This document shows, piece by piece, positions 6,924 to 53,159 of a stretch of DNA of 64,000 bases. Made by a program: the position numbers and the translations under genes. Source of the stretch: Lacimicrobium alkaliphilum (GTDB lineage Bacteria; Pseudomonadota; Gammaproteobacteria; Enterobacterales; Alteromonadaceae); NCBI RefSeq assembly GCF_001466725.1, contig NZ_CP013650.1:1178001-1242000 (forward strand), given 5' to 3'. The first letter of the stretch is position 1. The number at the start of each line of letters is the position of its first letter. Below the pieces are notes generated by a model, which had not been told where the DNA came from, did no database searches, and worked only from the letters and a program-made list of their open reading frames with translations.

Positions 6924-6967
6924 GTCTCTCTCTGAGAATGTTGTTTTTACAGCAGAGAATGACAAAT

Positions 6968-7001
6968 GGAACACCCTGGCAATTCTTTTTCAGGGTGTTC
7001 C
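6968..7001. terminator. Hairpin between convergent yqcA and dapD
   Basis: GGAACACCCTG (6968-6978) and CAGGGTGTTCC (6991-7001) form a perfect 11 bp stem with a 12-nt T-rich loop. Neither side has a strong T-run, so it may act as a weak bidirectional terminator or mRNA end stabiliser. Confidence 0.5.
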
Positions 7002-7016
7002 GGTGCACAGTTGCTA

Positions 7017-7835
7017 TTATTCCGCGGCTCTGAGCAAAGCGTTAATACCGACTTTGGCGCGGGTTTTTGCATCGACTTTTTTCACAATAATGGCGGCATA
7101 CAGGTTGCACTTGCCATCTTTTGAGGGCAGGGTGCCGGAGACCACTACAGAGCCTGCCGGTACCCGGCCATAATGGATCTGGCCGGTTTCTCTGTCATAG
7201 ATACGGGTGCTCTGGCTGATATATACGCCCATGGAAATCACCGCACCTTCTTCTACAATCACCCCTTCGACGATCTCTGAACGGGCGCCGATAAAGCAGT
7301 TGTCTTCAATAATAGTGGGGTTGGCCTGCAGGGGCTCCAGTACTCCGCCAATACCTACGCCACCGGATAAATGTACGTTTTTACCAATTTGTGCGCAGGA
7401 GCCAACCGTAGCCCAGGTGTCTACCATAGTGCCTTCGTCAATATAGGCGCCGATATTGGTGTAAGAGGGCATCAGCACCACATTTTTCGCCACATATGAG
7501 CCGGTACGTACCGTTGCCGGTGGCACCACCCTTACCCCCTCATCGGCAAACTGACGGGCAGTATAATCGGCATATTTCAGCGGTACCTTGTCGTAGAAGC
7601 GACTTTCAGCCCCGTCTATTAACTGGTTGTCATGCAGACGGAAATACAACAGCACGGCTTTTTTCAGCCACTGGTGGACGACCCATTCTCCGGCAATTTT
7701 TTCGGCCACGCGAGCCTCACCCGTGTTAAGCATGGCAATGGCCTGTGACACGGCATCGGCCACTTGCATATCTGCGCTGTCCAGCTCGTTACGCTGTTCA
7801 AAGGCCTGTTCTATGATGGATTTCAGTTCTGACAT
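7017..7835 (-). CDS. dapD: Tetrahydrodipicolinate N-succinyltransferase
   Basis: DapD transfers succinyl from succinyl-CoA to tetrahydrodipicolinate in the lysine/meso-diaminopimelate pathway. The 272-residue product (E. coli 274) has an N-terminal helical domain and a left-handed beta helix of hexapeptide repeats from about residue 105 ([30 protein letters not shown]). The family segment [10 protein letters not shown] is near the end. It overlaps glnD by 13 bp and is last in the map-glnD-dapD unit. Confidence 0.96.
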
Positions 7836-10471
7836 GTTTCACTCTGTGTTTGTTGATTCAAAATGGACATTAGTTGCTTTTTCAGTGTGACCTGTTGTTC
7901 ATTGGTCAGGGCTTCGCCCTGACTGTTGGTGAGAATAAACAAGTCCTCCGCCCGCTCACCTATGGTGGTGATCTTGGCCATATGCAGAGACAAGTCGCAG
8001 ATCACAAATTGTTGCGAGATGGTGGCCAGCAGCCCCGGTGCATCAAGCGCTTCCAGCTCAAGCAGCGTCATATTGGCCTGATTGGTAAAAAAGCGCATTT
8101 TCACCGGAACATTGAGTTGTTTCATCCGTCTGGGCATCTTTCGGTTGTTCTGGTGGGCACTGCCCGGTCGTTCCAGTTGGGCAAGAATGGCATCTTTGAG
8201 GCTCTGACGACGGGAGCCAGAGGTGATGCGGCTGCCATCATCCTCAAGAATTACAAAGCTGTCGAACACGTAGCCATCCTGTGTGCTCATAATCTGTGCG
8301 TCATGGATTGAACAGTTACGGCTGTCCAGTACCGAGGCAATCTGTGCAAACAGGCTGGCCCGGTCGCGACCATAAAGAATAAGCTCGGTACCGGCCTTTG
8401 AGGTATCATCGCTGACTTCAACAATGACCTGATTCTCTGCCAGGCTTTCATTGCCGAGGATGACACTGGCATGCCAGACCAGCTGGCTGGGCTTAAACCG
8501 CACAAAATAGTCCCAGTCCAGGCGATCCCAGAACTGTTGTACCTGATGGTCGTCTTTGCCCATAGAGGCCAACAGGTTAAGGGCTTCCTGCTGGTGTTCT
8601 TCCACTTTGGCTTTAAGATCAATCTGACATTCCAGGCCGCTTTCAAGGGCCTTTTTGGTCATCAGATACAGCTCTCTTAACAACGACGCTTTCCAGTCAT
8701 TCCAGAGGTTATCATTGGTGGCGCGGATATCTGCCAGAGTCAGCGCGTACAGATGCTCCAGATAATTGACATTACGTATCTTGCCGGCAAATTCATTAAT
8801 GACATCAGGATCATAGATATCCCGGCGCTGCGCGGTAACGGACATCAGCAGATGATTCTCTACCAGCCATACCACCAGTTCCTTGTCTTTTTTGCCAACG
8901 CCATGAGTGTCGCAAAAAGCACGCAGATCTTCTGCGCCGAGCTTGGAATGGTCACCACCGCGACCTTTGCCAATATCATGGAAAATGGCGGCGATATACA
9001 ACAACTCAGGCTTGTCCAGATTCTGGAAGATCCTGTGGCAACGGGGGAAGTCCCTGGCGCCTTCACTCTGACTGTAATGATAGATATGTTTGATTAATCT
9101 GTGGGTGTGTTCATCTACCGTGTAGGCATGGAAGAGATCAAACTGCATCATGCCCACAATCTGGTTCCACTCGGGCAGATAGGCCTGCATGATGCCGTGC
9201 TTGTGGGCCACTTCCCAGGCAAAGGAGAAGAAATTCGGGTGTTTGAGCAGTCGCATAAAGAGTTCACGGCAACCAGGGCGTTCACATAAAAACGCCGAAC
9301 GGAAATTACGCCGGGCGTTACGCAGCAGTCTGAGTGTGGCCGAATGTAACCCCTGTGCCTGAGGTGTATCTGAAAGCAGTACTAAAAAACTCAGCAGCTT
9401 TTCCGGGGTGTCAAATACCTGGTCATGGCGGGCCTGTAACAAGCCATCGGCAAGGGCAAAATCCTGATTAATCGGCTCAAACCGGCGCACTTTTGCTGCC
9501 AGTATATCCTGGCGAAAATGCTGCAACAGCATCTCATTGAGCTCTGAAATCCGGCGCACCGTGCGAAAGAACGCTTTCATCATGGTTTCTACCGAGGCTT
9601 TGCCCTCATCACCATATCCCAGGCGTTTCGCCACCTCGGGCTGAAAATCAAACAACAGACGGTTCTCGCTGCGCCCGGCTTCCAGGTGCAGGGCAAAGCG
9701 AATGCGCCATAAATGATTACGACACTCGATCAGCTCTTCAAATTCTCTGGCAGTAAAGTAATTGTGCTCCACCAGTTCCTGACCTTTGAGCACCTTAAAA
9801 TGTTTTTTAGCCACCCAGCCAATGGTCTGAATATCCCGCAGACAGCCGGGGTTCTCTTTGACATTAGGCTCGAGGTTATAGGCGGTGCCGTTAAACTTGG
9901 CGTGGCGTTGACGTTGTTCATCGTATTTGGCTAGAAAGAAATCTTTACTGCTCCAGAACCCTTTGCCCTGAACTTTTTGCTGCAAGCGATTAAAAGTCTC
10001 TTTGCTGCCACTGAGCAGGCGCGCTTCGATAAGATTAGTCGCGATGCTGACATCGTCTTTTGCCAGCTTGATTGTCTGTGACAGGGTTCTGACAGAATGG
10101 CCCACATCCAGACCAATATCCCACAGCAGCGTCACGAAACGACCAAGCTTTTCATTGATCTCTTCGCTGGGCTTTTTGTGATTCAGCAGCAGCAAATCAA
10201 TATCTGAATAGGGTTGCAATTGCCCGCGGCCGTAGCCGCCAACGGCCACCAGCGCCAGTTCAGGATAGCTGTGTAATTCCAGTAGCTGCCAGATATGGCG
10301 CAACAGCGCATCCACAAAGGTTGCCCGGCCGCGCACCAGATTATCCACCTCTGTAAGTGAGGCATTGTCTTCCAGCCATTGATGGTTATTTTCGATACAG
10401 GCCTTGAACGCAGCGATATTATCCACCGTGCTGATGCGTTTTATCTGGCCGAGCAGGCTCTGCAGCGACAA
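7823..10471 (-). CDS. glnD: Bifunctional uridylyltransferase/uridylyl-removing enzyme (PII)
   Basis: GlnD uridylylates PII proteins when glutamine is low and de-uridylylates them when it is high. The domain order is canonical: nucleotidyltransferase ([19 protein letters not shown]), PII-type linker, HD hydrolase ([15 protein letters not shown]) and two C-terminal ACT domains that sense glutamine. The Shine-Dalgarno TAAGGAG overlaps the map stop codon and touches a TTG at 10477, so the better start is the TTG at 10471, six bases further on, giving 882 residues. Confidence 0.95.
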
Positions 10472-40930: not shown

Positions 40931-41179
40931 CTAATCCTCCGTTTTGTCTTTAAACTCACATAAATCTTCGATCAGGCAGGCGCCACAGCGCGGCTTTCTG
41001 GCCACACAGATATAGCGTCCATGCAGGATCAGCCAGTGATGCACATCCACTTTAAATTCTTTGGGTACCACTTTGAGCAGTTTCTGCTCCACCTCGTTGA
41101 CGTTTTTTCCTTTAGCCAGGCCGGTGCGGTTACTGACTCTGAAGATATGCGTATCCACGGCGATGGTTGGCCAGCCAAA
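40931..41179 (-). pseudogene. nth: Displaced native 3' end of nth
   Basis: On the minus strand the reading frame FGWPTIAVDTHIFRVSNRTGLAKGK... continues to the FeS motif [17 protein letters not shown] and a stop at 40931. This is the C-terminal 80-odd residues of endonuclease III in its usual sequence (FGWPTIAVDTHIFRV). It has no N-terminal part: an in-frame TAA lies a few codons before FGW in island DNA. It is the host 3' end cut off when the island integrated, and it retains the gloA ribosome site. Confidence 0.93.
41170..41179. other. attL core of the island
   Basis: GCCAGCCAAA occurs here and again at 52763-52772 inside the chimeric nth, which marks the two island junctions. On the host side the sequence continues as native nth, on the island side as AGATAATTAAAAC. 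The presumed crossover dinucleotide is CA at 41172-41173 (TG on the nth coding strand). Confidence 0.88.
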
Positions 41180-41209
41180 AGATAATTAAAACAGATGTTG
41201 TGTATATTT

Positions 41210-41218
41210 TGGTATAAA
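41210..41218 (+). promoter_or_regulatory. Putative integrase promoter (extended -10)
   Basis: TGGTATAAA forms an extended -10 (TGn plus TATAAA at 41213-41218) 49 bp before the integrase ATG and about 35 bp inside attL. No good -35 is visible. Confidence 0.4.
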
Positions 41219-41266
41219 ATCAACGATGGAATCATCTCTGGCAACGTTGGGAAAGGAGCTCTTGCA

Positions 41267-42931
41267 ATGCCGAACGCCCTCAAACCACTATTATACAGTT
41301 ACATCCGTTTTTCAACCGCGGAACAGGCCAAAGGTCATTCTCTCTCTCGCCAAATGAGCTATGCAAAGAAAATAGCTGATGAAAGGGGGTTAAGGCTTGA
41401 TGATTCGCTAACCATGCGGGATCTTGGCCTTAGTGCGTTCCATGGAACGAATATTACGAAAGGTGCATTGGGCACCTTTTTGAGTGCTATACAGCAAGGA
41501 AAAGTTCCAGTTGGTTCTATCTTATTAATTGAGAGTCTAGACAGGATATCCAGGAGAGGGGTAACTGATTGTAACAGCATTATCACCCAGATTATAAATG
41601 CTGGTATCACTGTGATAACAGCAATGGACAACAAGGAGTATAACAAGCAGCTTATTGATGAAAATCCGTTTGAGCTATTTGCTATGTTGATGATTTTTAT
41701 TCGGGCAAATGAGGAAAGTGCAACGAAGTCTAAACGTGTTCGTGATGTTCTTACTGCGCAGTGTGAAGACTGGTTGGCTGGTAAGCGTGAATTCCGGGTT
41801 AAATGTGGTAAGGCACCTAAATGGGTGAAGTGGGATGAGAATATTAAAGGCTTTGTTTTCGAGCCGCGAGAACGTGACATTGTCCTGCGAAAAATTGAAC
41901 TATATAAGCGTGGATATGGTGGTTTGAAAATTGCCGAAGTGCTTAATTTTGAATTCGGTGCTGGGACAGTACACCACACAGGAGCAAATGTGTATAAAGA
42001 GGTTAAGCGCCGCTCTTTAGTTGGTGAACTTCAGGTCAAAGTGGGGGAAATTGATTACATTTTGGATGGTTACTTCCCGGCATTGATCACTCACAGCGAG
42101 TTCAATTCATTAGTCGCTGATTCATCAAAGCGTGGCGCGATCAAGCACTCGCAAAAGTTTGTTGGGATTCTTGCCGGGATTGATGTATTCAAGTGCGGGA
42201 GGTGTGGCAGGTCCGTCGGTTCTCACGTTATATATAGAAAAAAAGAAATTGATGATGTAAAAAGCAGTCACAAGCGGTATGGCTGCATAGAAGCTAGACG
42301 AAATAACAACTGTTCTATGAAGTCGACTATCCAGATAGATATCGTCGAGAAGGCCCTTGTGCGCTTTTGTCAGGATAAAGTCAACTTACAGCGGATCTTG
42401 CTCAATGGCAGTGACCGCGATGACATTAATGCTGAAGAAGTACAACTTAAAACTCGGTTAGAAAAAGTCGAACGAAACATTGATTCACTGCTAGAAACTT
42501 TACTTATTCTTACTGAAGAGCCCCCACAGGCAATTGCTAATAAAATTAGAACTCTTGAATCTGAAGTTATTGATATCCGGGAAAAAATTACTGTTAACAA
42601 AAATAAACTGGCTAGGATCGACAATTCATACAGGGATGAAGTGACAGAGCGTTGGCTATCTCTGACCGAGAACCTGAACAGGCTGGATAGTGAAAGGCGT
42701 TTGCAGCTACGTCAGCTGGTTAAAGACACGTTCAAGTCAGTCACTCTACAAGTTGATGTAAAAGAAAAGCTGGATTTAAAAGGATTGGAAAGCTTGATTG
42801 ACGCTCAATTAACTGGGGGTCAAACGGATAAGTGCTTTGACCTAACATTAGAGTTTCATAATGGAAAGAAGCGAATGCTTAGACTAGACAAGTACTCAGG
42901 AGAACTCATGGCTGGTTTTGATCTTGCCTGA
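41267..42931 (+). CDS. Large serine recombinase (integrase)
   Basis: The ATG at 41267 with an AAAGGAG ribosome site gives 554 residues. The N-terminal resolvase catalytic domain has YSYIRFSTAEQAKGHSLSRQ with the nucleophile Ser at about residue 16, and LLIESLDRISRRG. A recombinase domain follows, then a zinc-ribbon (CGRCGRSVGSH ... YGCIEARRNNNCSM) and a coiled-coil arm near the C-terminus (LEKVERNIDSLLETLL ... IREKITVNKNKLARID). This is the architecture of large serine integrases, which recombine short attP and attB sites. It sits next to attL, as expected for the enzyme that inserted the island. Confidence 0.95.
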   Translation: MPNALKPLLYSYIRFSTAEQAKGHSLSRQMSYAKKIADERGLRLDDSLTMRDLGLSAFHGTNITKGALGTFLSAIQQGKVPVGSILLIESLDRISRRGVTDCNSIITQIINAGITVITAMDNKEYNKQLIDENPFELFAMLMIFIRANEESATKSKRVRDVLTAQCEDWLAGKREFRVKCGKAPKWVKWDENIKGFVFEPRERDIVLRKIELYKRGYGGLKIAEVLNFEFGAGTVHHTGANVYKEVKRRSLVGELQVKVGEIDYILDGYFPALITHSEFNSLVADSSKRGAIKHSQKFVGILAGIDVFKCGRCGRSVGSHVIYRKKEIDDVKSSHKRYGCIEARRNNNCSMKSTIQIDIVEKALVRFCQDKVNLQRILLNGSDRDDINAEEVQLKTRLEKVERNIDSLLETLLILTEEPPQAIANKIRTLESEVIDIREKITVNKNKLARIDNSYRDEVTERWLSLTENLNRLDSERRLQLRQLVKDTFKSVTLQVDVKEKLDLKGLESLIDAQLTGGQTDKCFDLTLEFHNGKKRMLRLDKYSGELMAGFDLA

Positions 42932-43104
42932 TGGATAAGTGGGCGATTAAGTGGATTAATTATTAACAATTCGAAGCCTAATGTTAGTGGAAGGCTGAAA
43001 ATATGAGTTAGTAGATAATATCTATCCTAGATGAAATTAGGTTATTCACATTCACTCTTTCCCAGAGCTAATGATGTTGCGAATTTATAACCAGTTAATA
43101 AAGT

Positions 43105-43134
43105 TTGATAAAACTAAAAAATCAATGCTATTAT
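43105..43134 (+). promoter_or_regulatory. Putative promoter of the 90-residue island gene
   Basis: TTGATA (43105-43110) and TATTAT (43129-43134) with an 18 bp spacer, about 85 bp before the ATG at 43219. The surrounding AT-rich DNA lowers the specificity of this call. The rest of 42932-43218 holds no gene I can support. Confidence 0.4.
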
Positions 43135-43218
43135 TAATGTGTGATAATTTTCTATTTAAATGGATCTGCATAATTTAAATAAAAAGTGGCGATTTGTACA
43201 AAACAAAATGAGGGTGGA

Positions 43219-43491
43219 ATGTCAGAATTGGAACTCAACCTATTTATAAAAATATTTAAACAAGGTTCAAATAAGGACTTGGTAAGTAAGCTGTTTGAAG
43301 AATTAAGCGATGTAGACAGTATTTCTGCTCTAGAGGGTTTTGTTGAGAGCTGTCTTGTCGAAGAAAAAAATGTAGATGGATTTAGAGACTGTGTCATCCG
43401 TAAAATAAAAAGTGAAAAAAATCAAAAAAATAAAATAGTATTGAACTCTATTTCATCAGTTATGGACTTGAAAAGAAGACGAAATCGGTAG
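43219..43491 (+). CDS. Small island protein, unknown function
   Basis: ATG at 43219 follows GAGGGTGGA and gives 90 residues beginning MSELELNLFIKIFKQGSNKD. The product is helical and highly charged with a basic C-terminus (DLKRRRNR) and no membrane segment. An in-frame GTG at 43186 would add 11 residues. I do not recognise a family. It lies just after the integrase on the same strand and could be a regulator or directionality factor, but that is only positional inference. Confidence 0.5.
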   Translation: MSELELNLFIKIFKQGSNKDLVSKLFEELSDVDSISALEGFVESCLVEEKNVDGFRDCVIRKIKSEKNQKNKIVLNSISSVMDLKRRRNR

Positions 43492-43641
43492 GTCGCTCGA
43501 CTCTTTACTGTACTGAAAAGGACGTAAAACACATGGTTTGTGCTCCATTCTTCTCAGGGGGGATTTTATGACCAGCGTTAACGTCGTCCTCTGCAACTCA
43601 GTCCACTAACTCAAAAGATTTTACAGTCTCATAGAGGAAAG

Positions 43642-43848
43642 TTAAGGCCAAATTTTTTCCTTCAGCTTTCCTATCAGTGAATGAAGAATAATTCTTTCTT
43701 TATCAGTGATTGCGTCTACTCCATAGTCATGTATCTTGAGAGCAACACATGCTTCTTCCTTGTTTAATTTGATATTGTAAGTTCCGCCCGATGTCAGAAA
43801 TGTGTAAGATGAAGCTGGTTTGGTCTTAAAAAAATTTTCAATTTTCAT
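43642..43848 (-). CDS. Small island protein, unknown function
   Basis: 68 residues: MKIENFFKTKPASSYTFL, GGTYNIKLNKEEACVALKIHDYGVDAI, then KERIILHSLIGKLKEKIWP. Mixed alpha/beta composition, no recognised domain. Its start region (AGAGAAAACGA before ATG) is acceptable. AT-rich like the rest of the island. Existence as a gene is likely but not certain. Confidence 0.45.
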   Translation of the reverse strand: MKIENFFKTKPASSYTFLTSGGTYNIKLNKEEACVALKIHDYGVDAITDKERIILHSLIGKLKEKIWP

Positions 43849-44010
43849 TCGTTTTCTCTTATAAATCTGAAAGGTTAATTCAATTATCTCTAAAATTAAT
43901 GTCAGCGGTTAGTATGTCATTGAAAAACTCTATAAAAGTAAAGCTCTACAGTTATGGGGGTTTATGATGAACATTTATACTTATTATTGCAGGATCATCA
44001 TATCTGCTTT

Positions 44011-44298
44011 CTATTTGAAATCAGCATCGGTAAAACCTTTGAATCTGGCGCAGAAACTTTTTATGACTTGTGCTGACAATTCTTCGAAGATTTGATTTCC
44101 TATACTGATACCTTTTTTCACGATCTTTCCTCGTTTGTCAATGACAGCCAATTCGTATCCTTGCGCAACAAGTAGTCCACTGTTTGATGCTTTAATCAGA
44201 CGGCTATTTTGGTCTTGGTGGGAAATGTCAGCAGAATTTTCTGTTTGGGAAATTCGTTTGTTTAATGAGGTCTTTGTGTGTTCTGTCGTCCTAGACAT
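44011..44298 (-). CDS. Small island protein, unknown function
   Basis: 95 residues. The first 30 are polar and probably disordered (MSRTTEHTKTSLNKRISQTENS); the rest (LIKASNSGLLVAQGYELAVIDKRGKIVKKGISIGNQIFEELSAQVIKSFCARF) looks like a small folded domain with a beta hairpin and helix. I do not recognise it. It lies downstream of vapE on the same strand beyond a terminator, so it probably has its own promoter in 44299-44738. Confidence 0.5.
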   Translation of the reverse strand: MSRTTEHTKTSLNKRISQTENSADISHQDQNSRLIKASNSGLLVAQGYELAVIDKRGKIVKKGISIGNQIFEELSAQVIKSFCARFKGFTDADFK

Positions 44299-44693
44299 GT
44301 TGATTCCTTTTTTTTGCTTTCCAGATTCCAGTTGATTTTATTTTAGCTGATTTTTATTGGAGCAGGCCAGAAAATCCAAGTTTTTTTGAGACTATTTTGT
44401 CTTTTAAATCAATGTGTTGGTTGGCTGTGTTTAAAGTTTTATTATATTACTGTCAATAATGTTAAATATTTGGGGTTGCAAGTGCCTTTTTTGTTTCCCG
44501 GTTTTGGGTTAATTGGTTAATGGTGATCTATCGTGTAGATAAAATCATGAAAACTTCTTATGTGACATTTGTTAATGTTCTAGATCTTATTAACCATTTA
44601 ACCATTTAACCATTTTGTTAGGTTCGCTCTATTAGTTTATGGGGTTGTTCTGTTAATGTTATAGTTGTTTTACAATAAAGTTGTTTTTGCTAA
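44299..44693. other. AT-rich gene-free segment with tandem repeats, origin candidate
   Basis: No gene is visible. Three perfect tandem copies of TTAACCAT occupy 44590-44613, and a related inverted form (TTAATTGGTTAATGG) lies near 44508-44522. A short hairpin ATCTA-TCGTG-TAGAT is nearby. Iteron-like repeats next to a VapE/primase-type gene suggest a replication origin, which is inference. Confidence 0.35.
44590..44613 (+). repeat. Three tandem 8-bp iteron-like repeats
   Basis: TTAACCAT is repeated three times without interruption, downstream of the island vapE gene. Confidence 0.7.
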
Positions 44694-44720
44694 AAAAATA
44701 CCCACGATATCGTGAGTACT
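44692..44720 (-). terminator. Terminator of the island vapE gene
   Basis: On the minus strand ACTCACG-ATAT-CGTGGGT is followed by ATTTTTTTA, a 7 bp stem plus U-tract 20-45 bp past the vapE stop. Confidence 0.7.
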
Positions 44721-44738
44721 TGTAATAAAGGGTGGAGT

Positions 44739-46055
44739 TTAGTAAAAACCATTCTTATCGCGTGATCTAGAAAGTTTCAACTCATAATAAGTTGCATTGG
44801 CTCTTCCTTTCTGGCTTTGTATTTTTCCTTCAGCGACTAGACGTGTCAATGCTTGTCCTACCTGCCTTACGAATCGCTTATCAATCTTCTCAAGATCGCA
44901 AATATCTGTTGCTTTAAACAAGCGTTTAGTGCATGCCTCATCGTCTACAAGCACATAACGATCAAGCAGTATTTCATACCAGCCACCTTTGTCAGCATGT
45001 TTGTCGTTGTTCAGCGCAAATTGTGCCACTTGGTCAGGAGTTAGGTTCCAACTTTTGCCTGACTCATAGCAATGTTTTACTTCTAGCCAAAATTGCTTAA
45101 GTTTATTCGGTTCTTGAAGCTGGATGCGACCTTGTTCATAACTCCACCCCAACAGGTAGTTAAGCTGCTTTATATCTACGGCTTCTTTGAGTTCAATCAC
45201 TACATAACGACTATTACCGCTATCATCCTTTAGAAAATTGGTTCCGTTGACGGACGCAATTAAGTGAGTTTGTCGAGGTTTCTGCACGTCGATGCGCGCA
45301 TACGGTGGGCGCACTGTATCTATTTGTCGCGTGATAAAAGCCTTTAAGCTACCCTGTGAGTTTCTGCTCGTTCGCTCTAATTCACCAAGTTCAACTACCC
45401 AACTTTTAATAACACTCAACACAGAATCTTTTACGTCAGGGTTCAATTCAGCACCCTCCAAAAAGGCACCTGAAACAACGCTGCAAATACGTTTTATTGC
45501 GGTTGTTTTCATGAAGCTTTGATCGCCTTGTATTATCGGCACAAGCTTTGAGCTAAAGTCAGCTTCGTAAAGGGATGCAACGCAGCCTATTAGCCAGTGT
45601 TGAAGAACCACTTTAGCATCGCCAGGGTTCTTTGCGTTGAGGCATGAGATCACCTTTTCTACTCTATTAGTTCCATCCCAGTTTCCGTCTTCCAGCCACT
45701 TTGCTACGGGGTGAACGCAGTTTTCTTCCGCAATGGCGGAAAGATGGTCGTCGATAGCTATCTTCGGCAATCCAAAACGGCCACACCAGCCAACCAAGTT
45801 ACTACGTAAGGCATCAAATGACGTAAAAATCACTTCGTTATTTTTGGTTACCTCCAGTTCTAGGTTCATTGCGTTTCGTTGTACCCGATAACCCAAATGT
45901 TCGATCATTGCTTCAAGGTTTTCAGCCGTATTTAAAAGAGTTGTTTTGCCCTTACAGCTCGTAGAAAAATCTGGGAAGTCAGGTTTTGTACATGACCGTA
46001 CGGTGCTAGATCCCCATGAGTGGATGTTTTGGATAGGATTGATTGAATTAAACAT
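44739..46055 (-). CDS. VapE-family P-loop ATPase/helicase (replication protein)
   Basis: The 438-residue protein matches the virulence-associated E (VapE) family found in phage satellites and islands, related to replicative helicase/primase proteins. The domain has HPVAKWLEDGNWDGTNRVEKV, WLIGCVASLYEADFSSKLVPIIQGDQSFMKTTAIKRIC, the Walker B-like WVVELGELERT, KAFITRQIDTVRPPYAR and LIASVNGTNFLKDDSGNSRYVVIEL. The Walker A is unusual: GDQSFMKT lacks the second Gly of G-x4-GK-T. No N-terminal primase domain is seen. Its terminator and the iteron-like repeats follow. Confidence 0.85.
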   Translation of the reverse strand: MFNSINPIQNIHSWGSSTVRSCTKPDFPDFSTSCKGKTTLLNTAENLEAMIEHLGYRVQRNAMNLELEVTKNNEVIFTSFDALRSNLVGWCGRFGLPKIAIDDHLSAIAEENCVHPVAKWLEDGNWDGTNRVEKVISCLNAKNPGDAKVVLQHWLIGCVASLYEADFSSKLVPIIQGDQSFMKTTAIKRICSVVSGAFLEGAELNPDVKDSVLSVIKSWVVELGELERTSRNSQGSLKAFITRQIDTVRPPYARIDVQKPRQTHLIASVNGTNFLKDDSGNSRYVVIELKEAVDIKQLNYLLGWSYEQGRIQLQEPNKLKQFWLEVKHCYESGKSWNLTPDQVAQFALNNDKHADKGGWYEILLDRYVLVDDEACTKRLFKATDICDLEKIDKRFVRQVGQALTRLVAEGKIQSQKGRANATYYELKLSRSRDKNGFY

Positions 46056-46303
46056 AGAAACTCCATTTGATTACCAGCATAACATCGCTCTGTTCATTCG
46101 AGATAAGATGCTAGCTTCTTCCTGTTGAACTTAACCTTAGGCAATTGGGGCACCCGCTTGCCTCATTTCACATTCATGATAGTAGCTGATTTTTTTTAAA
46201 AGCATCGCGATTGAATTATTTAATCTTAATAGTTTGAATTTAAAGGACTTATCTCTCTTAGGAAGTTGATGCCAGTTAGAAATGTTTTTTTTGCCTCGCA
46301 GAG

Positions 46304-46334
46304 CTTACGGTATTTCGAAGAAATGCGGAGTAAG
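46304..46334. other. Candidate oriT inverted repeat upstream of the relaxase
   Basis: CTTAC, then GTATTTC-GAA-GAAATGC, then GTAAG form a nested imperfect palindrome about 115 bp before the relaxase start, in the 395 bp gene-free gap between vapE and mob. MobV relaxases usually nick at an inverted repeat just before their gene. The nick site cannot be read from sequence. Confidence 0.35.
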
Positions 46335-46447
46335 TCCTTCGTTTACTTATAAATCATATTTTGTCTATACATTCACACCTTCATAAATATCATGAATGTA
46401 AATCTAAAATGAATTCATTTGATATATAATAAAAAGCAAGGAGGAGC

Positions 46448-47359
46448 ATGATGAACGAACAATTAAAGAGCTATGGAATATTTCGATTGGAGAAGCTTAA
46501 GTCAATTGGTGAAGTGCGACGTTCACTCATGCATGTTTTTCGTGAGCAAGAGACACCCAATGCTGACTCCAGTAAGTATCATCTTAATCAAAATTTGATC
46601 GCCAAGTACGTAAAGGATAGCGACAGTGCTTTGGCTCGTTTGCGAGCCCGACTTGAACGCATGTCAAAGTCCCCCCGAAAAAACGCTGTCTTAGCTGTTG
46701 AGGCGGTTTTTACCGCCTCACCTGAGGCGATGTTGCAGCTGGCAGTAGAACAGCGCATACGATATTTTAGAGACTGTGTTCGATGGGTTGGCAAGTTCGT
46801 GGGGGCGGAAAGCATCATTACAGCACAAGTGCACAGATGCGAAACGACAGATCACCTCCATGTCATTTTTTCTCCGATTCCTCAAGGCGATAACTCGCTG
46901 AACTTCAGAAAGCTCTTCGGTGGAAATAAACATCGGCTGTCACAGATCCAAGATCAGTTTCATCAGGAAGTCGCGGGAAAGTACGGACTTGACAGGGGGG
47001 TAAAGGGGTCTCGAGCCACCCACCAATCCCTAACTGAATACAATTCGTTGGTTAATCATTCATTACCAGAGCTTCGAGCAGAGAAGCATGAGCTTGAGCG
47101 TCAGTGCAACGACCTAAACAAAAAAATACTACGAGGACGTCAGTTGTTAGACGCCATTACTTCTGACATTAAAAAAGCAGTGGTGGAACATTCAAATACT
47201 GTCCGATATTGCTTAACTGCTCTAAAAGAACGACTGATGGACCGTTGGGGCATGATCTATGAGGGCAATAACCAGTTTAAGCGTGAAGCAGATGAGTTTA
47301 TAGAGGAAGTCGAGGATAAGCCTAAAAGGGAGCACCCCGTGCCAAGACGGCGTATGTAA
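46448..47359 (+). CDS. MobV/Pre-type relaxase
   Basis: The 303-residue protein resembles plasmid mobilization proteins of the Mob_Pre family. The metal-binding motif is AQVHRCETTDHLHVIFSPI (His129, Glu132, His136, His138; family HxDExxPHxH), preceded by the strand VEAVFTASPEA. Then come FRKLFGGNKHRLSQIQDQFHQEVAGKYGLDRGVKGSRATHQSLTEY, a diagnostic MobV stretch, and a coiled coil (about 205-245). Such enzymes nick oriT and lead the strand into a recipient through a helper conjugation system. The ribosome site is AAGGAGGAG; an ATG three bases later is also possible. Confidence 0.88.
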   Translation: MMNEQLKSYGIFRLEKLKSIGEVRRSLMHVFREQETPNADSSKYHLNQNLIAKYVKDSDSALARLRARLERMSKSPRKNAVLAVEAVFTASPEAMLQLAVEQRIRYFRDCVRWVGKFVGAESIITAQVHRCETTDHLHVIFSPIPQGDNSLNFRKLFGGNKHRLSQIQDQFHQEVAGKYGLDRGVKGSRATHQSLTEYNSLVNHSLPELRAEKHELERQCNDLNKKILRGRQLLDAITSDIKKAVVEHSNTVRYCLTALKERLMDRWGMIYEGNNQFKREADEFIEEVEDKPKREHPVPRRRM

Positions 47360-47378
47360 AATAAGGGTACAGATAAGT

Positions 47379-50300
47379 CTATTTAGTAATCTCTCGAATG
47401 TGGGTGTTGATTGCGTCAAAACTCATAAAGTGGCCTTCGATAAACTGAGTAGCTAGTTGTCTGATTAGGATATTTAACTTTGGTATGTGTCGTAAATGCT
47501 CCATAACAGCGCATAGTAACAACGCAAGTTTTTGCTCAGCTTCTTTACCATCAGCTTGGTGGATTGCAAGCTGACAGCAGGAATTGAAGACATGCTCTGT
47601 ATACTCAAAGTTTCCGGGGTTTGTCATCCAATTTTTCCGTGAGGTCTCTCCGTTAAAAATAGTTTGAGCGAGAGTAATCACCAAGATTTTATGAAGGTGT
47701 GCTATTGCCTCTTCAGTGTTCTGATAGGCGTTAGGATACATTTGTAGCAGCTTCGCCAAAAAGTAGTTTGAGTACTCATCCTTGGATCTGGCTAGTTGTA
47801 ATAGCTCTTCGTAAGTGAGCGGATAAGGGATTCCACAAGTGACATGGCGATAGAGCCCTACAAGTTTTTGCTCAATATCTAAATTTACACTGATGGACAT
47901 ACAAAATTGCAAGGAATTCGCTATTGGATAGCTTGCTTGCTTTGATAATTGGGCAAACGTTGGATCAATGCATAGCCATGGTATATCGTTCGAAATAGAA
48001 AGGCTGAGGCTTGAATACACCGATTCATCTACTGAGGCGTGGATCTGCACAATGTCTGGCGGCATATCCACTAAACGCGGGGTTATTATTTCCGCTGTTT
48101 CAAGTGCGTGCTTTATCGCGTTTTGAACATCGGCGGTATACGCCTTTACATGTGCAGACGTCGTTATTCTTATTTTTCTTGTGTCTTTCTCAATGCCCAT
48201 CCTCATATAGTCTTCCCTGTTAATATTTTCAAGGAATGCTTCAAGTAAGGCCTTGGTTTCCATGGTGATCGCCAAGGTGGTAGTGCTCTGAATCAGGCCA
48301 TGAATCAACCCGGTTAAACCAAGGTAGACAATTGCATAAACATCTAAGATGATTTGACTTGGTTGACTTTCCCCAAAGTTCGGCAGCGGGTGTTTGATAG
48401 AAGAAGTTGAGCAGTACTGATTAAGTGCTGCGTGCACAGGACACTGCTTTTCAAATCGGTGTCCTTTTAGAAATAGAGGGATTGCTGGGTTAGAGCATAT
48501 GGCTTCTTCGGTACCGTCCGTGCTGAGCAGCAGTTTTCTTTCTACGCTGCTGATCATTTCTTCCGGGTCCTCAGGTAGCGACAACTGATAAAAGCAATCA
48601 CTGCCATCATTGTTGGTTTGTCTCAGATCGCATGCCATCCTCAGTATTGCAACGTAGGGTGGTAAAACCTCCACAAGTTTGACTTCCTGCATCCCATGGT
48701 TGGCGCTCTCTCCCACCTGCATATTAAGCAAAATCTCACCCAATGGGGAGTCACTTTTCAGCAACGAGGAGTGACTTGGTTCGATATTCTGTACTATCAG
48801 TTTGGAGACTGCTTTTCCTTCGAGAAGGAAATTGAAGCCCCCTAGACATACATCTGTTGTTTTTGATGGCTCGAGGTGCAAATCCTCTTTTTTAAGTGCT
48901 GCCTTGGAAAAATGGAAATTGGTTATATCTTTAGCACAGTCGTTCGGGTTTTCTACAAACCAGTTGACAAGAATATTCTCAGCCCGAAAAAAACCATCGT
49001 TGCAGGATATTTCAATGAGTAATGGCAATGCCAGCTTGGATGGACGTATGAACAACTCGTTGGGAATATTTTTGAGTAGAGCCGCATACTTTGCTTTTGG
49101 TGTTTGATTTCTTTTGTGCAGATGAATTAAGTAATGCCATAGTGGGAGAGGATCAGCATCCAACTTCAGTGCTGACTCCATGGCCTCGATAGCACCGGAT
49201 ATATCATTGATCCTCTCAAGCTGTCTAGCTTTGACTTCCCACAAGAATCCGCACCAGTCTTCCGCTGGTATGTCATCTAATATAGCTTTGAGGGTGATCA
49301 GTTGGTGGCTGTTAAAAAGAGCGATGATGTAGATTCTAACAAGTGGTGATAGCCATAAATCTCCTTTGGGTACTACCGGATTCAAAAGAGTGCATACTTG
49401 TGAGGCTAGATCGGCATCAGTTAATTTGGTGGTTAAGTCCAGCATTCTGTGCGGGTTTAATTGTGATAACTCACTTGTGTGGGCTGATACTAACTTAGCA
49501 ACTGCGTTTTTGATTTCCAGCTTGGATTTTGGGCTGCCATCGTCTTTAAGACAAAGTAATTCTATAGTGACAAAGTGTCGTTCTATATCGTTGGTTGTGT
49601 CAACCTTACCGCCTCGATTGAGCCACTGAGCAATGTCATTGGATTGGGCGATATGACTGAGTATGAAAAATTGCTCTCGTGAGATCTCCGCATTTTCTGT
49701 TAGACGCTTAATCAAGAATTTTCGATAAGAGAAGTCCCTCTCTGCCTTATCGATTTCAGCCTGAGGGCCTGTAAGGGTGTTCGAGCTACGTTCCTTTATA
49801 CTCCGCAGAATCGAGGCTGCCTTAGAGTCCAGTTGCTCAATGGCGGAAATGTGCTTCCAGCAAGCATCGATCAAGCGGTCTTCGCTTCCGCCAAAATAGT
49901 TTAGAAAGCCAATTGATTGAATAATCAATCTTTTGTCTTTGCCCTGACATTCATTCAGCAGTGCTATGGCCTCGTCTACAAGTTCCATAACCAGCCTTTT
50001 TTCTGAGCGGGTTATGAGCCAATAATGCGTTGGAGAAATTAGACTGTTGAAATGATTACAGCGTGTAATCAAGCTTACAACTTTGCTATTGAAGGATGGG
50101 TAGATAGTTTTTAGGCGCTCGGCAGCCGCGACGGACTGCTCAAGACTCTCACATCGCAGTAGCCCTCGGGTCAATCCGCATAGTGTTATCTCTGTTAAGG
50201 CAGTTGCTTTGCTGGTGAAATGACTCTCAAGATAGTTTTTTGTAGCAATAAACTCAAAATACACTTCCTGGCAATATTCACCCTGCGGGCTAGTGACCTC

Positions 50301-50708
50301 ATATCTGGAGATGGCATCTTTACTCCTTTCGTTGTGGAGATCTAGCCTCATCAAAATTGAAAGGGCAATGTCGTTAAAAAGGCCATCAGGAAAGGCTCTG
50401 ATGCAGTTTTCTATTTGTGAATAGCTATTTTCTGGAGGCTGGCCGTATGCCAGTTCAACAAGCACAGAGGCTGCCGACAATATTGCTGTAGTAGAGGCAT
50501 CGAGTTGATCTGTTGTTTGAAGTGTTGTGAGTTTTTCTTTGGCAGTGTCTATGTTGCGATGACGAAGGCTAGTGAGTATATCAACAATCGGTTTCTGGAT
50601 TACTGATGGAGTTATTGCTTGGTGAACGTGCTTTTCTCTGACGTTATCTCCAAGTCCAGAATGGTTTTGAATAATCCGCCCAGTGGGGGGGCCATTGTCC
50701 TTTATCAT
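47379..50708 (-). CDS. TPR / GreAB-C-like / PIN-like conflict protein
   Basis: The 1109-residue protein begins with the motif HSGLGDNV (16-23), which recurs in its small partner. Residues about 40-610 are helical repeats with TPR character (clearest near 485-545). Residues about 615-690 contain SPLGEILLNMQVGESANHG, close to the C-terminal domain of GreA/GreB (SPLGxALLGKxVGD). Residues about 785-935 look like a PIN nuclease: Asp in IILDVYAIVYLGLTGLI (789), Glu in LAITMETKALLEAFL (817) and acids in SNDIPWLCIDPTFAQL (908, 915). A helical C-terminus follows. TPR-GreABC-PIN proteins are, from memory, known in prokaryotic conflict surveys. Likely an RNase effector; this is inference. The start overlaps the 110-residue gene by 4 bp. 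Confidence 0.75.
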   Translation of the reverse strand: MIKDNGPPTGRIIQNHSGLGDNVREKHVHQAITPSVIQKPIVDILTSLRHRNIDTAKEKLTTLQTTDQLDASTTAILSAASVLVELAYGQPPENSYSQIENCIRAFPDGLFNDIALSILMRLDLHNERSKDAISRYEVTSPQGEYCQEVYFEFIATKNYLESHFTSKATALTEITLCGLTRGLLRCESLEQSVAAAERLKTIYPSFNSKVVSLITRCNHFNSLISPTHYWLITRSEKRLVMELVDEAIALLNECQGKDKRLIIQSIGFLNYFGGSEDRLIDACWKHISAIEQLDSKAASILRSIKERSSNTLTGPQAEIDKAERDFSYRKFLIKRLTENAEISREQFFILSHIAQSNDIAQWLNRGGKVDTTNDIERHFVTIELLCLKDDGSPKSKLEIKNAVAKLVSAHTSELSQLNPHRMLDLTTKLTDADLASQVCTLLNPVVPKGDLWLSPLVRIYIIALFNSHQLITLKAILDDIPAEDWCGFLWEVKARQLERINDISGAIEAMESALKLDADPLPLWHYLIHLHKRNQTPKAKYAALLKNIPNELFIRPSKLALPLLIEISCNDGFFRAENILVNWFVENPNDCAKDITNFHFSKAALKKEDLHLEPSKTTDVCLGGFNFLLEGKAVSKLIVQNIEPSHSSLLKSDSPLGEILLNMQVGESANHGMQEVKLVEVLPPYVAILRMACDLRQTNNDGSDCFYQLSLPEDPEEMISSVERKLLLSTDGTEEAICSNPAIPLFLKGHRFEKQCPVHAALNQYCSTSSIKHPLPNFGESQPSQIILDVYAIVYLGLTGLIHGLIQSTTTLAITMETKALLEAFLENINREDYMRMGIEKDTRKIRITTSAHVKAYTADVQNAIKHALETAEIITPRLVDMPPDIVQIHASVDESVYSSLSLSISNDIPWLCIDPTFAQLSKQASYPIANSLQFCMSISVNLDIEQKLVGLYRHVTCGIPYPLTYEELLQLARSKDEYSNYFLAKLLQMYPNAYQNTEEAIAHLHKILVITLAQTIFNGETSRKNWMTNPGNFEYTEHVFNSCCQLAIHQADGKEAEQKLALLLCAVMEHLRHIPKLNILIRQLATQFIEGHFMSFDAINTHIREITK

Positions 50709-51037
50709 TGGTGGTTAATTATCTTATTACCGGCTACATTGTCGCCTTTGCCTGAGTGTGTCTGAATTATTGTTGTGGATTTGTTGGGTTTAATCTGGCG
50801 GATGATCTCCAGAGTGTCGTTAGAGGCGAGCAGGCTCCTTTCAATTGCAGATTCACTCATATCACTATTGAGTTCCATGCGGGAAATCTGGTTTTCTAAC
50901 GCTCTCAGTGTTGAATCATCAACAAGCCAGTTTTTCAAACGGTCTTTGAGGTTTGCTCTTGAGAGGGCCAATGAGTGCTTCAGCATGTCGTAGATGGTGC
51001 TGGCTAATATTGATGTAGTGATAGCCTCAGAAATCAT
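50705..51037 (-). CDS. Small HSGxGDNV-motif partner protein
   Basis: 110 residues. An N-terminal helix (EAITTSILASTIYDMLKHSLALSR) and a charged middle are followed by a basic linker and a C-terminal TTIIQTHSGKGDNVAGNKI (motif HSGKGDNV at 94-101). The same HSGxGDNV motif opens the downstream 1109-residue protein. Its ATG has a CCGGAG ribosome site. The stop overlaps the next start (ATGA), so the two proteins are made together and probably interact. I know no firm family name. A sensor, adaptor or immunity role is possible. Confidence 0.7.
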   Translation of the reverse strand: MISEAITTSILASTIYDMLKHSLALSRANLKDRLKNWLVDDSTLRALENQISRMELNSDMSESAIERSLLASNDTLEIIRQIKPNKSTTIIQTHSGKGDNVAGNKIINHQ

Positions 51038-51258
51038 GGAGTACTCCGGTTTTTATTTCGCATGACTATCCATTTTTACAGATATTGGTTTTGCTGTTTA
51101 GTTATACTTTGCTTAACTGAAGAGTTTTTCAAGTGTAGTATTGAAAATAATTGTCTTTGGAGTAGCCAAAACAGGATTACTCGACGCCAAGACGGCATAG
51201 GAGAAGCGAGCAATTTGGATAAGGCTGAGAGAGAAGTTTATGCACAGTTAAAAGAAAA

Positions 51259-51281
51259 AAGCCGACTGACCAGTCGGCTTT
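51259..51281 (-). terminator. Terminator after the SIR2-like gene
   Basis: AGCCGACTG and CAGTCGGCT (51260-51279) form a perfect 9 bp stem; on the minus strand TTTTTTCTTTT follows. It closes transcription coming from nth/SIR2 and separates it from the 110-residue gene. Confidence 0.85.
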
Positions 51282-51309
51282 TGGAAACTGTAAGAGTTAA
51301 CAACCTTTG

Positions 51310-51438
51310 TTACTTGCTATTGACGCGTGTTACTTTGCGAGTACTGCCTTCTTTTAAGGCCTTTGTGAAGGCTGCACCTAAAGCTCGCATACCATCAATT
51401 TTGCGTTGGGAAAGTTCGCCTTGTCGGTTTGAAAGCAT
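51310..51438 (-). CDS. Candidate 42-residue small protein
   Basis: ATG at 51438 has a strong Shine-Dalgarno-like GAGGGGGAT with 4-6 bp spacing and opens MLSNRQGELSQRKIDGMRALGAAFTKALKEGSTRKVTRVNSK. It overlaps the 3' end of the SIR2-like gene by 86-44 bases in another frame and stops 29 bp before the terminator, so it is positioned as the last gene of the unit. Basic, helical, no homologue recognised. It may be a true small gene or chance. Confidence 0.4.
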   Translation of the reverse strand: MLSNRQGELSQRKIDGMRALGAAFTKALKEGSTRKVTRVNSK

Positions 51439-52474
51439 GATAATCCCCCTCTGAGTAACCATGATCTTTGTGGCTCAATAACCAGTGGTCAAATTCTACC
51501 CTTTTTTTAGTTACATTTGCAAGCCTAGCATAAAAGGCGTTGAGTTTCGAATATTGAGCCTGGGCTATGTACAACGATACGTCTATGGTGGCGCTGTGTG
51601 CGTTGATGAAGGCAATAATTATCTCCCCGAGAATGCGCATCTCTTTTAGTTGGAAATTGCTCTTAGGTCGTTGATATGGCGTACATTTTTCACGATTACT
51701 TACAAGGTCAAATTTTATTTCGTAAGTATGCTCATCAGTAATTACCCCTGTAACTTGTTCAATGTGAGCTAAAGTTTCAGCGGGCAAAGTAGAGGTTGTG
51801 TCAGTTTTGGGAGTAAAATAAATCTCGTACTGTTCGCCCAATAGCTCGAATTGAGCAACTTGCACTGGGATTTTCTCTCCAACGTCAAAATCCTCAAATG
51901 TCAGAGGGACGTATCGTAAAACTTCAGTACAAGACAGTATATCCAAGAGATCACCTTGGACTTGTTTACCGGTGAGATGAGGCTGTTTACTTAGATTGTA
52001 ATGATACGGCGTCCCCCCTGCTGTAATGATCATGGATTCAATATGTGCCAGCGGCAAACCATCTTCACTTATACCCAGAAAGAAAACTATATCCCCCCTT
52101 TCCCAGATAAATGTAGATAGATCAACTGTAGGAAGGTCTCTCTGATCTAATAGTGATTGGATATTATTGATACAGCCGTAGACATGGGTAACCGTACCGC
52201 CTGATTGCTCGAGCAGATTGTCAATATTCAATGTGTAATGCATGAATTCAATATTCATGTATCTACAGATCTCTTCGAGTCTACTGCACTCTTTATGAAC
52301 TGAGCTCGGACTATATTGCTCAAAGGCATTTCTGATTTCTTCTGAAGCAGCTAGTGCTTCACAGCTGGATTTTGACAAAAACTTTTGATACAGAGGATGT
52401 TCTGAAATCTCCTCATAAGTTGGCGCGCCAGATGTTGCGGATAAACCTGCACCGGAAATCAGTACTAACCTCAT
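51395..52474 (-). CDS. SIR2-like NAD-binding protein (probable defence gene)
   Basis: From ATG 52474 the 359-residue protein begins MRLVLISGAGLSATSGAPTYEE, the sirtuin NAD-binding GAGxSxxSGxPT loop, followed by HYTLNIDNLLEQSG (residues 79-92; sirtuin TQNIDxL) and a strand-turn-strand ending FFLGISEDGLPLAHI. The usual catalytic HG is replaced: the aligned position reads VYG (Tyr99), with a His two residues before. No zinc-ribbon cysteines are present. About 170 C-terminal residues are unrecognised. Such SIR2 domains in islands often act as NADases in anti-phage defence; that is inference. It lies 22 bp after nth in the same direction. Confidence 0.78.
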   Translation of the reverse strand: MRLVLISGAGLSATSGAPTYEEISEHPLYQKFLSKSSCEALAASEEIRNAFEQYSPSSVHKECSRLEEICRYMNIEFMHYTLNIDNLLEQSGGTVTHVYGCINNIQSLLDQRDLPTVDLSTFIWERGDIVFFLGISEDGLPLAHIESMIITAGGTPYHYNLSKQPHLTGKQVQGDLLDILSCTEVLRYVPLTFEDFDVGEKIPVQVAQFELLGEQYEIYFTPKTDTTSTLPAETLAHIEQVTGVITDEHTYEIKFDLVSNREKCTPYQRPKSNFQLKEMRILGEIIIAFINAHSATIDVSLYIAQAQYSKLNAFYARLANVTKKRVEFDHWLLSHKDHGYSEGDYHAFKPTRRTFPTQN

Positions 52475-52496
52475 TGAGAACTCACTTTTGATATAT

Positions 52497-53159
52497 TCAA
52501 TATTCGGTCTTCTCTTTGAACTCACACAAGTCTTCAATGATACAGGCACCGCACTTCGGCTTGCGCGCCGTGCAGACATATCGGCCATGCAAGATAAACC
52601 AGTGGTGTAGGTTGAACATAAACTCTTTTTTGTTAGGAGTATTTTTTATAATCGCTTGCTCAGTCTGCTCAACCGTCTTGCCTTTGGCGTAGCCAGTACG
52701 GTTCGCCACGCGCTGAATGTGCGTATCAACGGCGAGGAAGTATCTACCTTCATTATCTTTTAGCCAGCCAAAGGCGGTATTGAGCACCACATTGGCTGTT
52801 TTACGGCCAACTCCCGGCAGGGCTTCCAGTGCGGCTCTGTCCTGGGGCACCTGTGAGCCATGTTGTTCCACCAGTATACGGCAGGTTTTGATTACATTTT
52901 CGGCTTTGGCGTTAAACAGGCCGATGGTTTTGATATAGTCTTTCAGGCCATCAACCCCCAGAGCCAGAATGGCTTCAGGGCTATTGGCTACCGGATAAAG
53001 TCTGGCTGTGGCCTTATTCACCCCCACATCAGTAGCCTGTGCGGATAAGATCACCGCGATCAGCAATTCAAACGGGCTGTTGTAGTTAAGCTCCGTAGTA
53101 GGGTGGGGGTTATCGTCGCGCAGACGGCTGAGGATTTCTCTGCGTTTAAGGTTATTCAT
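52497..53159 (-). CDS. nth: Endonuclease III, host/island chimera
   Basis: Nth is a DNA glycosylase/AP lyase for oxidised pyrimidines. The 220-residue protein has the helix-hairpin-helix LPGVGRKTANVVL with the catalytic Lys, the catalytic Asp in AVDTHIQRV, and the 4Fe-4S cysteines in CTARKPKCGACIIEDLC. Up to NTAFGW the sequence is host; then comes LKDNEGRYFLAVDTH in place of the native PTIAVDTH, so everything downstream is island-supplied. The junction adds five residues before the catalytic Asp loop. It follows rsxE by 9 bp. The displaced native end is at 40931-41179. Confidence 0.95.
   Translation of the reverse strand: MNNLKRREILSRLRDDNPHPTTELNYNSPFELLIAVILSAQATDVGVNKATARLYPVANSPEAILALGVDGLKDYIKTIGLFNAKAENVIKTCRILVEQHGSQVPQDRAALEALPGVGRKTANVVLNTAFGWLKDNEGRYFLAVDTHIQRVANRTGYAKGKTVEQTEQAIIKNTPNKKEFMFNLHHWFILHGRYVCTARKPKCGACIIEDLCEFKEKTEY
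52763..52772. other. attR core of the island
   Basis: GCCAGCCAAA here encodes F-G-W (minus strand TTTGGCTGGC) of the chimeric nth and matches the attL core at 41170-41179. Host nth lies to the right; island DNA (TTATCTTTTA on the plus strand) to the left. Expected crossover dinucleotide at 52765-52766. Confidence 0.88.

Follow-up and report, generated by a model that had tools for sequence, protein, structure and literature searches.

The GAPS systems are those found on Gamma-Mobile-Trio islands, and the GapS6 pair, in which the gene for GapS6a stands directly before that for GapS6b, is an already known antiphage family. Also known, from sources whose text was available in part, are the TPR-GreABC-PIN architecture (Kaur 2021, PMC8195603) and bacterial amyloid signalling (Dyrka 2020, via PMC7889193 and PMC8086366). 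In the TPR-GreAB-C-PIN conflict system the protein mostly stands alone, with an effector fused N-terminally to a core of TPR, GreAB-C-like and PIN domains; the N-terminal position is the slot of a variable effector, and these effectors include a domain from the N-terminus of fungal HetE proteins (PMC8195603), to judge by its name the Pfam domain HetE-N. In amyloid signalling, motifs at the C-terminus of the effector and the N-terminus of the receptor, encoded by adjacent genes, are an established layout (PMC7889193). Here we analyse the GapS6 pair in a stretch of 64,000 nucleotides from Lacimicrobium alkaliphilum (NZ_CP013650.1, positions 1,178,001 to 1,242,000; hereafter the window), and propose, with a probability of roughly 0.6, that GapS6 is an effector clipped to its sensor by a shared motif instead of being fused to it, probably by amyloid-type homotypic co-assembly.

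The two genes lie on the minus strand of the window, GapS6a (110 amino acids, a HetE-N domain with a motif tail) at 50705..51037 and GapS6b (1109 amino acids) at 47379..50708, and the end of GapS6a and the start of GapS6b share the four bases ATGA. Both proteins match their NCBIfam models (NF047935 and NF047936) near full length and over the curated cut-offs, GapS6a with 118.7 bits (cut-off 90) and GapS6b with 1164.4 bits (cut-off 850), and GapS6b also matches Pfam PIN-TPR-GreABC over its cut-off. An earlier reading made from the letters alone (the sequence-only reading) had given both open reading frames with these lengths, within 47379..51037, and had called the pair a candidate defence system perhaps related to GAPS6-like or TPR-GreABC-PIN pairs; all of this was borne out, and by profile match the pair is a GapS6a/GapS6b system of the antiphage family. 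Gene order and adjacency are those of the family, and nothing was found that separates the window pair from it; no PADLOC 2023 model for either protein is listed at E values up to 1.

The two proteins share a short motif, IIQTHSGKGDNV at residues 90-101 of GapS6a and IIQNHSGLGDNV at residues 12-23 of GapS6b, which generalises to Q-x-H-x-G-x-G-D-N-V/I. As docking motifs we delimit residues 90-105 of GapS6a (IIQTHSGKGDNVAGNK; 50723..50770, minus strand) and residues 12-26 of GapS6b (IIQNHSGLGDNVREK; 50631..50675, minus strand). The sequence-only reading had seen the sharing correctly, as IIQ-x-HSG-x-GDNV, and had erred in having the small protein end with it: nine residues follow, so that the motif is near the C-terminus and not at its very end. 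Among 25 GapS6a sequences Q92, H94, G96, G98, D99, N100 and K105 are invariant; among 20 GapS6b sequences Q14 and G20 are invariant, with H16, G18, D21, N22 and K26 at 90% or more. Mean majority frequency is 0.87 for residues 92-105 of GapS6a versus 0.57 for residues 1-86 (30 sequences), and 0.75 for residues 14-26 of GapS6b versus 0.18 for residues 1-13, 0.40 for residues 27-33 and 0.43 for the solenoid (20 sequences). No part of GapS6a is better conserved than the motif, which in GapS6b forms a conserved island within a variable N-terminus. In AlphaFold2 (AF2) models both copies lie in predicted disorder, the predicted local distance difference test score (pLDDT) being mostly below 50 in the GapS6a tail (residues 88-96 and 102-110) and below 50 at residues 1-29 of GapS6b.

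By itself the window pair is only moderately striking: with the whole large protein shuffled, the best local score observed is reached 19 times in 2000; with the two termini alone, 0 times in 20000. What makes the resemblance real, and is the decisive point, is its recurrence: in 31 of 32 pairs (28/29, plus 3/3 added later) the best local alignment links the small protein's tail with its partner's head. The exception, locus L035, has a chance alignment with a score of 60; in its near twin L037 it is the motif that aligns, at 59. These 32 pairs, near duplicates included, are a first set of 29 together with L050, L109 and L113; the 26 GapS6 pairs of the first set reduce to 23 at 90% identity, and these served for permutation tests. 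L047, where GapS6a reads as broken, was excluded, and L110-L112 duplicate the contigs of L094-L096. At L032, L042, L044, L063 and L065 the partner protein is incomplete or interrupted, and the motif needs only its N-terminus. Of the 30 loci from the GapS6a alignment, L048-L061 are distant or owe their match mainly to the motif; of these only L050 and L051 were counted as pairs, since only there was a second motif-bearing gene found adjoining the first. Our first motif expression misses the L032 partner, L062, L063, L067, L068, L070 and L088, which were read by eye. Many loci were fetched with GapS6a patterns that included the motif, which partly selects the GapS6a side of the count and leaves the partner side unselected. 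The proposal that the motif is a docking element joining the two proteins is very likely correct.

The motif is also found with partners other than GapS6b. Among nine plasmid records with GapS6a, two lack a GapS6b match (L062, Buttiauxella; L063, Photobacterium), and the next gene in both encodes a different protein, starting SVSQ-N/S-HTGTGHNVAGD, which in L062 has 924 amino acids (second gene, 6318-9092) and in L063 is cut by the record origin. The 924-residue protein has no Pfam or NCBIfam match. Of its 22 listed plasmid relatives, 18 besides L062 and L063 align from residue 34-50 onward, and all six opened besides those two (L100-L105) have at least 130 residues ahead of the common body, with the motif absent; the added part of L105 is short (130 residues). 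As a family this chassis is plasmid-borne, about 900-1350 amino acids long and provided with exchanged N-termini, and no Pfam model was found for its body. At L051 (Thiotrichales) the first gene encodes a distant HetE-N protein (26.7 bits, cut-off 25) and the second, 140 bases further on, a NACHT protein (27.4 bits, cut-off 26.7) that carries the motif N-terminally. In L050 (Algoriphagus, 6315-9667) the effector side differs as well: a 221-residue TIR/DUF4062-like protein ends in the motif (TIR_2 E 0.005, below cut-off; 42% identity over 72% to a protein annotated DUF4062) and, two bases further on, an 894-residue TPR protein starts with it.

Cyanobacterial loci carry the motif N-terminally in NB-ARC/TPR proteins (L052 and L057; likewise L053, with NB-ARC below cut-off) or after TIR (L056), EAD11 (L054, L060), Roc-COR (L048, L061) and pentapeptide (L055) regions. 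Because they were found through the motif, these loci show where it occurs, not how often, and next to most of these cyanobacterial loci no second motif-bearing gene was seen. In L059 (Leptolyngbya) the motif stands in two genes on opposite strands, encoding 152 (+) and 260 (-) residues, and a 123-residue protein at a contig end (L049, 6818-7189) has, by eye, a hydrophobic stretch and two motif copies. On two viral contigs of about 240 kb, proteins of 517 and 570 residues (L097, 4597-6150; L099, 4495-6207) have HSG-T/S-GDNV near the C-terminus, and these may be decoys or chance.

A second line of evidence comes from the relatives of GapS6b. PF20698 was searched without the motif in 398, 385 and 399 genomes, the last two sets centred on already positive genomes, and exceeded its cut-off in 16 distinct genomes, the window's own included. 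In 14 of the 16 the TPR-GreABC-PIN protein has an extra N-terminal region and no motif was seen; in the other two (the window and genome G494, locus L088) there is no extra domain, the motif is present and GapS6a is next door. The PIN domain begins at residues 787 and 777 in the two motif-bearing proteins versus 993-1180 in the 12 others scanned. The 924-residue chassis shows this division too, its opened relatives having added N-terminal sequence where L062 and L063 have the motif. The extra regions contain a Mrr-like nuclease match at or below cut-off in three proteins (L089-L091), DUF4365 over cut-off in L119 and an alpha/beta-hydrolase match below cut-off in L118; the others were judged by eye, unassigned or, like L093 and L120, outside the Pfam scan. 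Absence of the motif from the 14 proteins rests on two expressions and on reading the first 240-260 residues. Because starts were taken from the longest open frame, the added length may be exaggerated, most likely in L086, L091 and L118; L119 and L120, near identical at the N-terminus, pass the PF20698 cut-off only with neighbouring matches added. L121, below that cut-off, proved unrelated. In G494, GapS6b begins with two tandem motif-like copies, one degenerate (L088, 2653-2760); motif repeats also occur in some amyloid signalling proteins.

The window GapS6b has the same core order of TPR, GreAB-C-like and PIN parts as the conflict system of PMC8195603, from which, as far as the available text goes, it differs in its effector: there it is fused N-terminally to a mostly standalone protein, whereas GapS6b has no fused N-terminal effector, begins with the motif and has as its proposed effector the product of a separate gene, GapS6a. 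The simplest reading is that the motif would take the place of the covalent link between effector and chassis. More broadly, and only tentatively, Q-x-H-x-G-x-G-D-N-V may serve as plug and socket in bacterial immunity at large, probably as a signalling amyloid that lacks a RHIM core. One type of effector could then serve unrelated sensors (GapS6b, the 924-residue chassis, NACHT), and different effectors (HetE-N, TIR/DUF4062-like) could be plugged in, replacing gene fusion and allowing cross-talk between systems in one cell.

GapS6a has a Pfam HetE-N match, and its predicted helical domain occupies residues 1-86 (50780..51037, minus strand), with helices within residues 2-79 of the AF2 model and block means of 76-92 up to residue 80. 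The Protein Data Bank (PDB) entry 9h9v ("BabyBass" soluble domain, 2025) is likewise a GapS6a-type HetE-N domain, 33% identical to GapS6a with a root mean square deviation (rmsd) of 1.6 over 82 residues; its chains of 82-85 residues stop before the motif, unlike GapS6a here, which carries the motif tail. The name BabyBass suggests that the depositors see HetE-N/GapS6a in the light of BASS amyloid signalling; no paper on the structure was found in the literature searched. BASS signalosomes (PMC7889193, PMC8086366, as far as their available text goes) join a small helical effector with a C-terminal motif to a large receptor with an N-terminal motif, encoded by adjacent genes; the motif is placed in the same way in the 31 of 32 pairs. 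They differ in that the receptor is an NLR, whereas GapS6b has no NACHT or NB-ARC in the Pfam scan, the related L051 pair having NACHT; the effector domain is BELL there and HetE-N here, two domains that may or may not be related. TIR and CHAT domains are also known from BASS (PMC7889193, PMC8086366). They have been described mainly in filamentous actinobacteria and cyanobacteria (PMC7889193), unlike the window, which is from a unicellular gammaproteobacterium.

In GapS6b the N-terminal motif precedes a TPR-like alpha-solenoid (residues 34-605, 48894..50609, minus strand), seen as helices in the AF2 model and matched below cut-off by TPR_14 (E 0.008). A GreAB-C-like beta domain (residues 621-682, 48663..48848, minus strand), the PIN domain (residues 787-923, 47940..48350, minus strand; Pfam PIN-TPR-GreABC 57.1 bits, cut-off 27.8) and a C-terminal helical region in the AF2 model (residues 932-1108, 47385..47915, minus strand) follow. 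The PDB matches that Foldseek and VIA list for the whole GapS6b model are mainly helical-repeat proteins, and with a whole-model query the lack of GreAB-C and PIN entries among them is uninformative. The domains named in the sequence-only reading fared unequally. Pfam and AF2 confirm the PIN and TPR-like parts; for GreAB-C a Pfam scan of GapS6b gives no direct GreA/B C-terminal match, and the evidence is the beta strands of residues 621-682 and a profile of the region, four chassis relatives included, that weakly matches GreA (E 0.008), GreB (0.027) and Rnk (0.029). Of the PIN acids it proposed (789, 817 and 915), D789 and D915 are conserved in 20/20 GapS6b sequences each, and residue 817, E in 9/20, is not conserved; D894 (19/20) is likely the third acid. 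The idea that GreA/B-C with PIN acts on hijacked RNA polymerase is already in print for this architecture (Kaur 2021, PMC8195603, text available in part). A link of GapS6b to RNA polymerase was not accepted as established, resting as it does on the weak GreAB-C profile evidence.

In the proposed mechanism GapS6b would be a sensor chassis whose TPR-like solenoid and GreAB-C-like domain detect the state of infection, perhaps at RNA polymerase, and whose PIN domain, able to cut RNA, would with GreAB-C form a second arm at transcription. GapS6a would be a separate HetE-N effector, each protein holding a disordered copy of the motif. Infection would cluster or rearrange GapS6b and so bring its N-terminal motifs together; the clustered motifs would nucleate a homotypic beta assembly, probably amyloid-type, that recruits GapS6a by its tail, and the crowded HetE-N domains would then act on the cell. 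We propose clustering and templating because the layout equals that of amyloid signalosomes, and the homotypic binding, its amyloid nature, the trigger, the RNA cleavage, the action of HetE-N and the order of events are all inferred.

Several observations weigh against this proposal. RHIM, PP and BASS3 (PMC7885112) are likewise short G- and N/Q-rich homotypic motifs that join receptor and effector, but they have a G-phi-Q-phi-G core, which none of the 29 pairs tested has at its termini; a RHIM identity is thereby rejected. The motif, lacking this core, is not filed as a BASS family. Nor has GapS6a a clear membrane-spanning helix, the best sampled 19-residue hydropathy within residues 1-46 being 1.06, and membrane insertion was dropped as its mode of action, the sampled windows giving no clear transmembrane helix. 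One GapS6b homologue (P0030, on a 3434-base contig) reads TINQKNNQVFNGNIVGGNLTINQ at residues 1-30, without the usual motif.

Covariation of mates cuts both ways: locus L070 speaks for the proposal, and the remaining pairs add to the points against it. At L070 (Pseudoalteromonas) the partners have changed jointly, to VTQSTNTGHNVYS in GapS6a and VHQQTEKGHNVFA in GapS6b, with GHNV in both, and the pair scores 48 with its own mate; with foreign heads the mean is 22.5, and with foreign tails 17.3. Over the 23 GapS6 pairs the free permutation gives p 0.018 and a partial Mantel test r 0.43 (p 0.007), but without L070 own and other scores are 57.9 versus 57.5 (p 0.37) and the partial Mantel r is -0.03 (p 0.63). 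With L109 and L113 added, the values are p 0.007 and r 0.44 with L070, and p 0.18 and r 0.09 without it. Permutation within clades gives p 0.20-0.41, and at L113 the change is one-sided, GapS6b having GHN while its GapS6a keeps GDN. Pair-specific covariation as proof of docking was therefore not upheld, the signal resting on the single locus L070; outside it the motif is too uniform to tell mates apart.

A motif conserved in both proteins and placed tail-to-head in 31 of 32 pairs could also be an ordinary constitutive interface, a beta-zipper or small heteromeric beta-solenoid holding a pre-assembled complex with no polymer, and overlapping or very close genes would suit co-translational assembly of such a complex. 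We consider this unlikely, as the use of one motif with different effectors and chassis, in disordered tails, more resembles signalling amyloids.

The sequence-only reading had cast the small protein as the sensor and the large one as the effector. In that form GapS6a would be a sensor or adaptor and the PIN domain of GapS6b, tied to RNA polymerase by GreAB-C, the sole effector, which accords with D789, D894 and D915 being invariant or nearly so and with the proposal of Kaur et al. (PMC8195603, text available in part) for GreA/B-C and PIN on hijacked polymerase. GapS6a, however, holds the place of the extra N-terminal regions of the relatives, some of them with Mrr-like nuclease, hydrolase-like or DUF4365 matches, and for that reason is better read as an effector, with GapS6b probably the sensor plus a second, PIN effector. 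The TIR/DUF4062-like protein uses the motif likewise, and HetE-N is paired as well with proteins that gave no PIN match; the assignment of sole effector activity to PIN is, on this evidence, distinctly improbable.

The coupling of a small gene to a large nuclease gene downstream of it also recalls the usual order of antitoxin before toxin. The GapS6a tail might on such grounds mimic the N-terminus of GapS6b and keep it inactive until infection removes GapS6a. Yet HetE-N pairs with a NACHT protein and with the 924-residue protein, in neither of which a PIN match was found, and at L047 a broken GapS6a stands beside an open GapS6b frame, which is awkward for an obligatory inhibitor; we regard this as very improbable. 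Chance, or a functionless echo of gene duplication, might be entertained for the window pair alone, given its 19 of 2000 shuffles, but is contradicted by recurrence in pairs with four kinds of partner protein and by the motif being the best conserved part of GapS6a, and was rejected as next to impossible.

GapS6 lies in an apparent element of about 11.6 kb inside nth (41170-52772), bounded by two copies of the 10-base repeat TTTGGCTGGC, at 41170-41179 and, within nth, at 52763-52772 (minus strand). Its cargo comprises a large serine recombinase beside one end (41195-42931), a VapE-like protein, a MobV relaxase, GapS6 and a SIR2-like protein. The displaced 3' part of a second nth copy lies outside the element at 40931-41179, and the full-length nth on the other side apparently got its 3' part from the element. 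The SIR2-like gene (51395-52588, minus strand; Pfam SIR2 E 0.0008, below cut-off) lies just upstream of GapS6a in the same direction; its actual start probably lies beyond the end of nth, and it is a possible second defence gene.

In all 14 assessable loci reached by way of GapS6b, that of the window among them, GapS6a stands immediately upstream (7/7 plasmid records, 3/3 genomes over cut-off, the window's own among them, and 4/4 viral-collection loci; a fourth genome, G753, below cut-off and cut by its contig, was left out), so that the co-occurrence of the two genes is clear. The family is rare: among 369 genomes of the class only the window's own has GapS6b over its cut-off, and among 341 of another order there are two, including the positive genome around which the search was made. 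In the genome-contig search the GapS6b query gave no match and a GapS6a alignment found loci; the phage collection gave no GapS6a match, and the E. coli collection, searched in near mode with the L096 pair only, no match. GapS6 pairs occur on viral-collection contigs (L094-L096, L109), and because the gene before GapS6a in L109 resembles, by eye, a phage repressor, some copies may be prophage-borne.

In the literature searched, neither the motif as an exchangeable link across effectors and chassis nor the pattern of extra domain or motif was found in print, and a search by the names GapS6 and GAPS found no paper about the system. The surprise is lessened because the BabyBass entry shows that others are already working on the HetE-N domain. 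The probable joining of a killer protein to its sensor by a tag resembles what immune proteins of fungi and animals do. If true, the proposal would explain how GapS6a and GapS6b work together. It would also suggest that the choice of effector in TPR-GreABC-PIN and other systems may be switched by swapping a tag of about 15 residues, not by gene fusion, and that amyloid-type immune signalling may extend to unicellular gammaproteobacteria and to sensors that are not NLRs.

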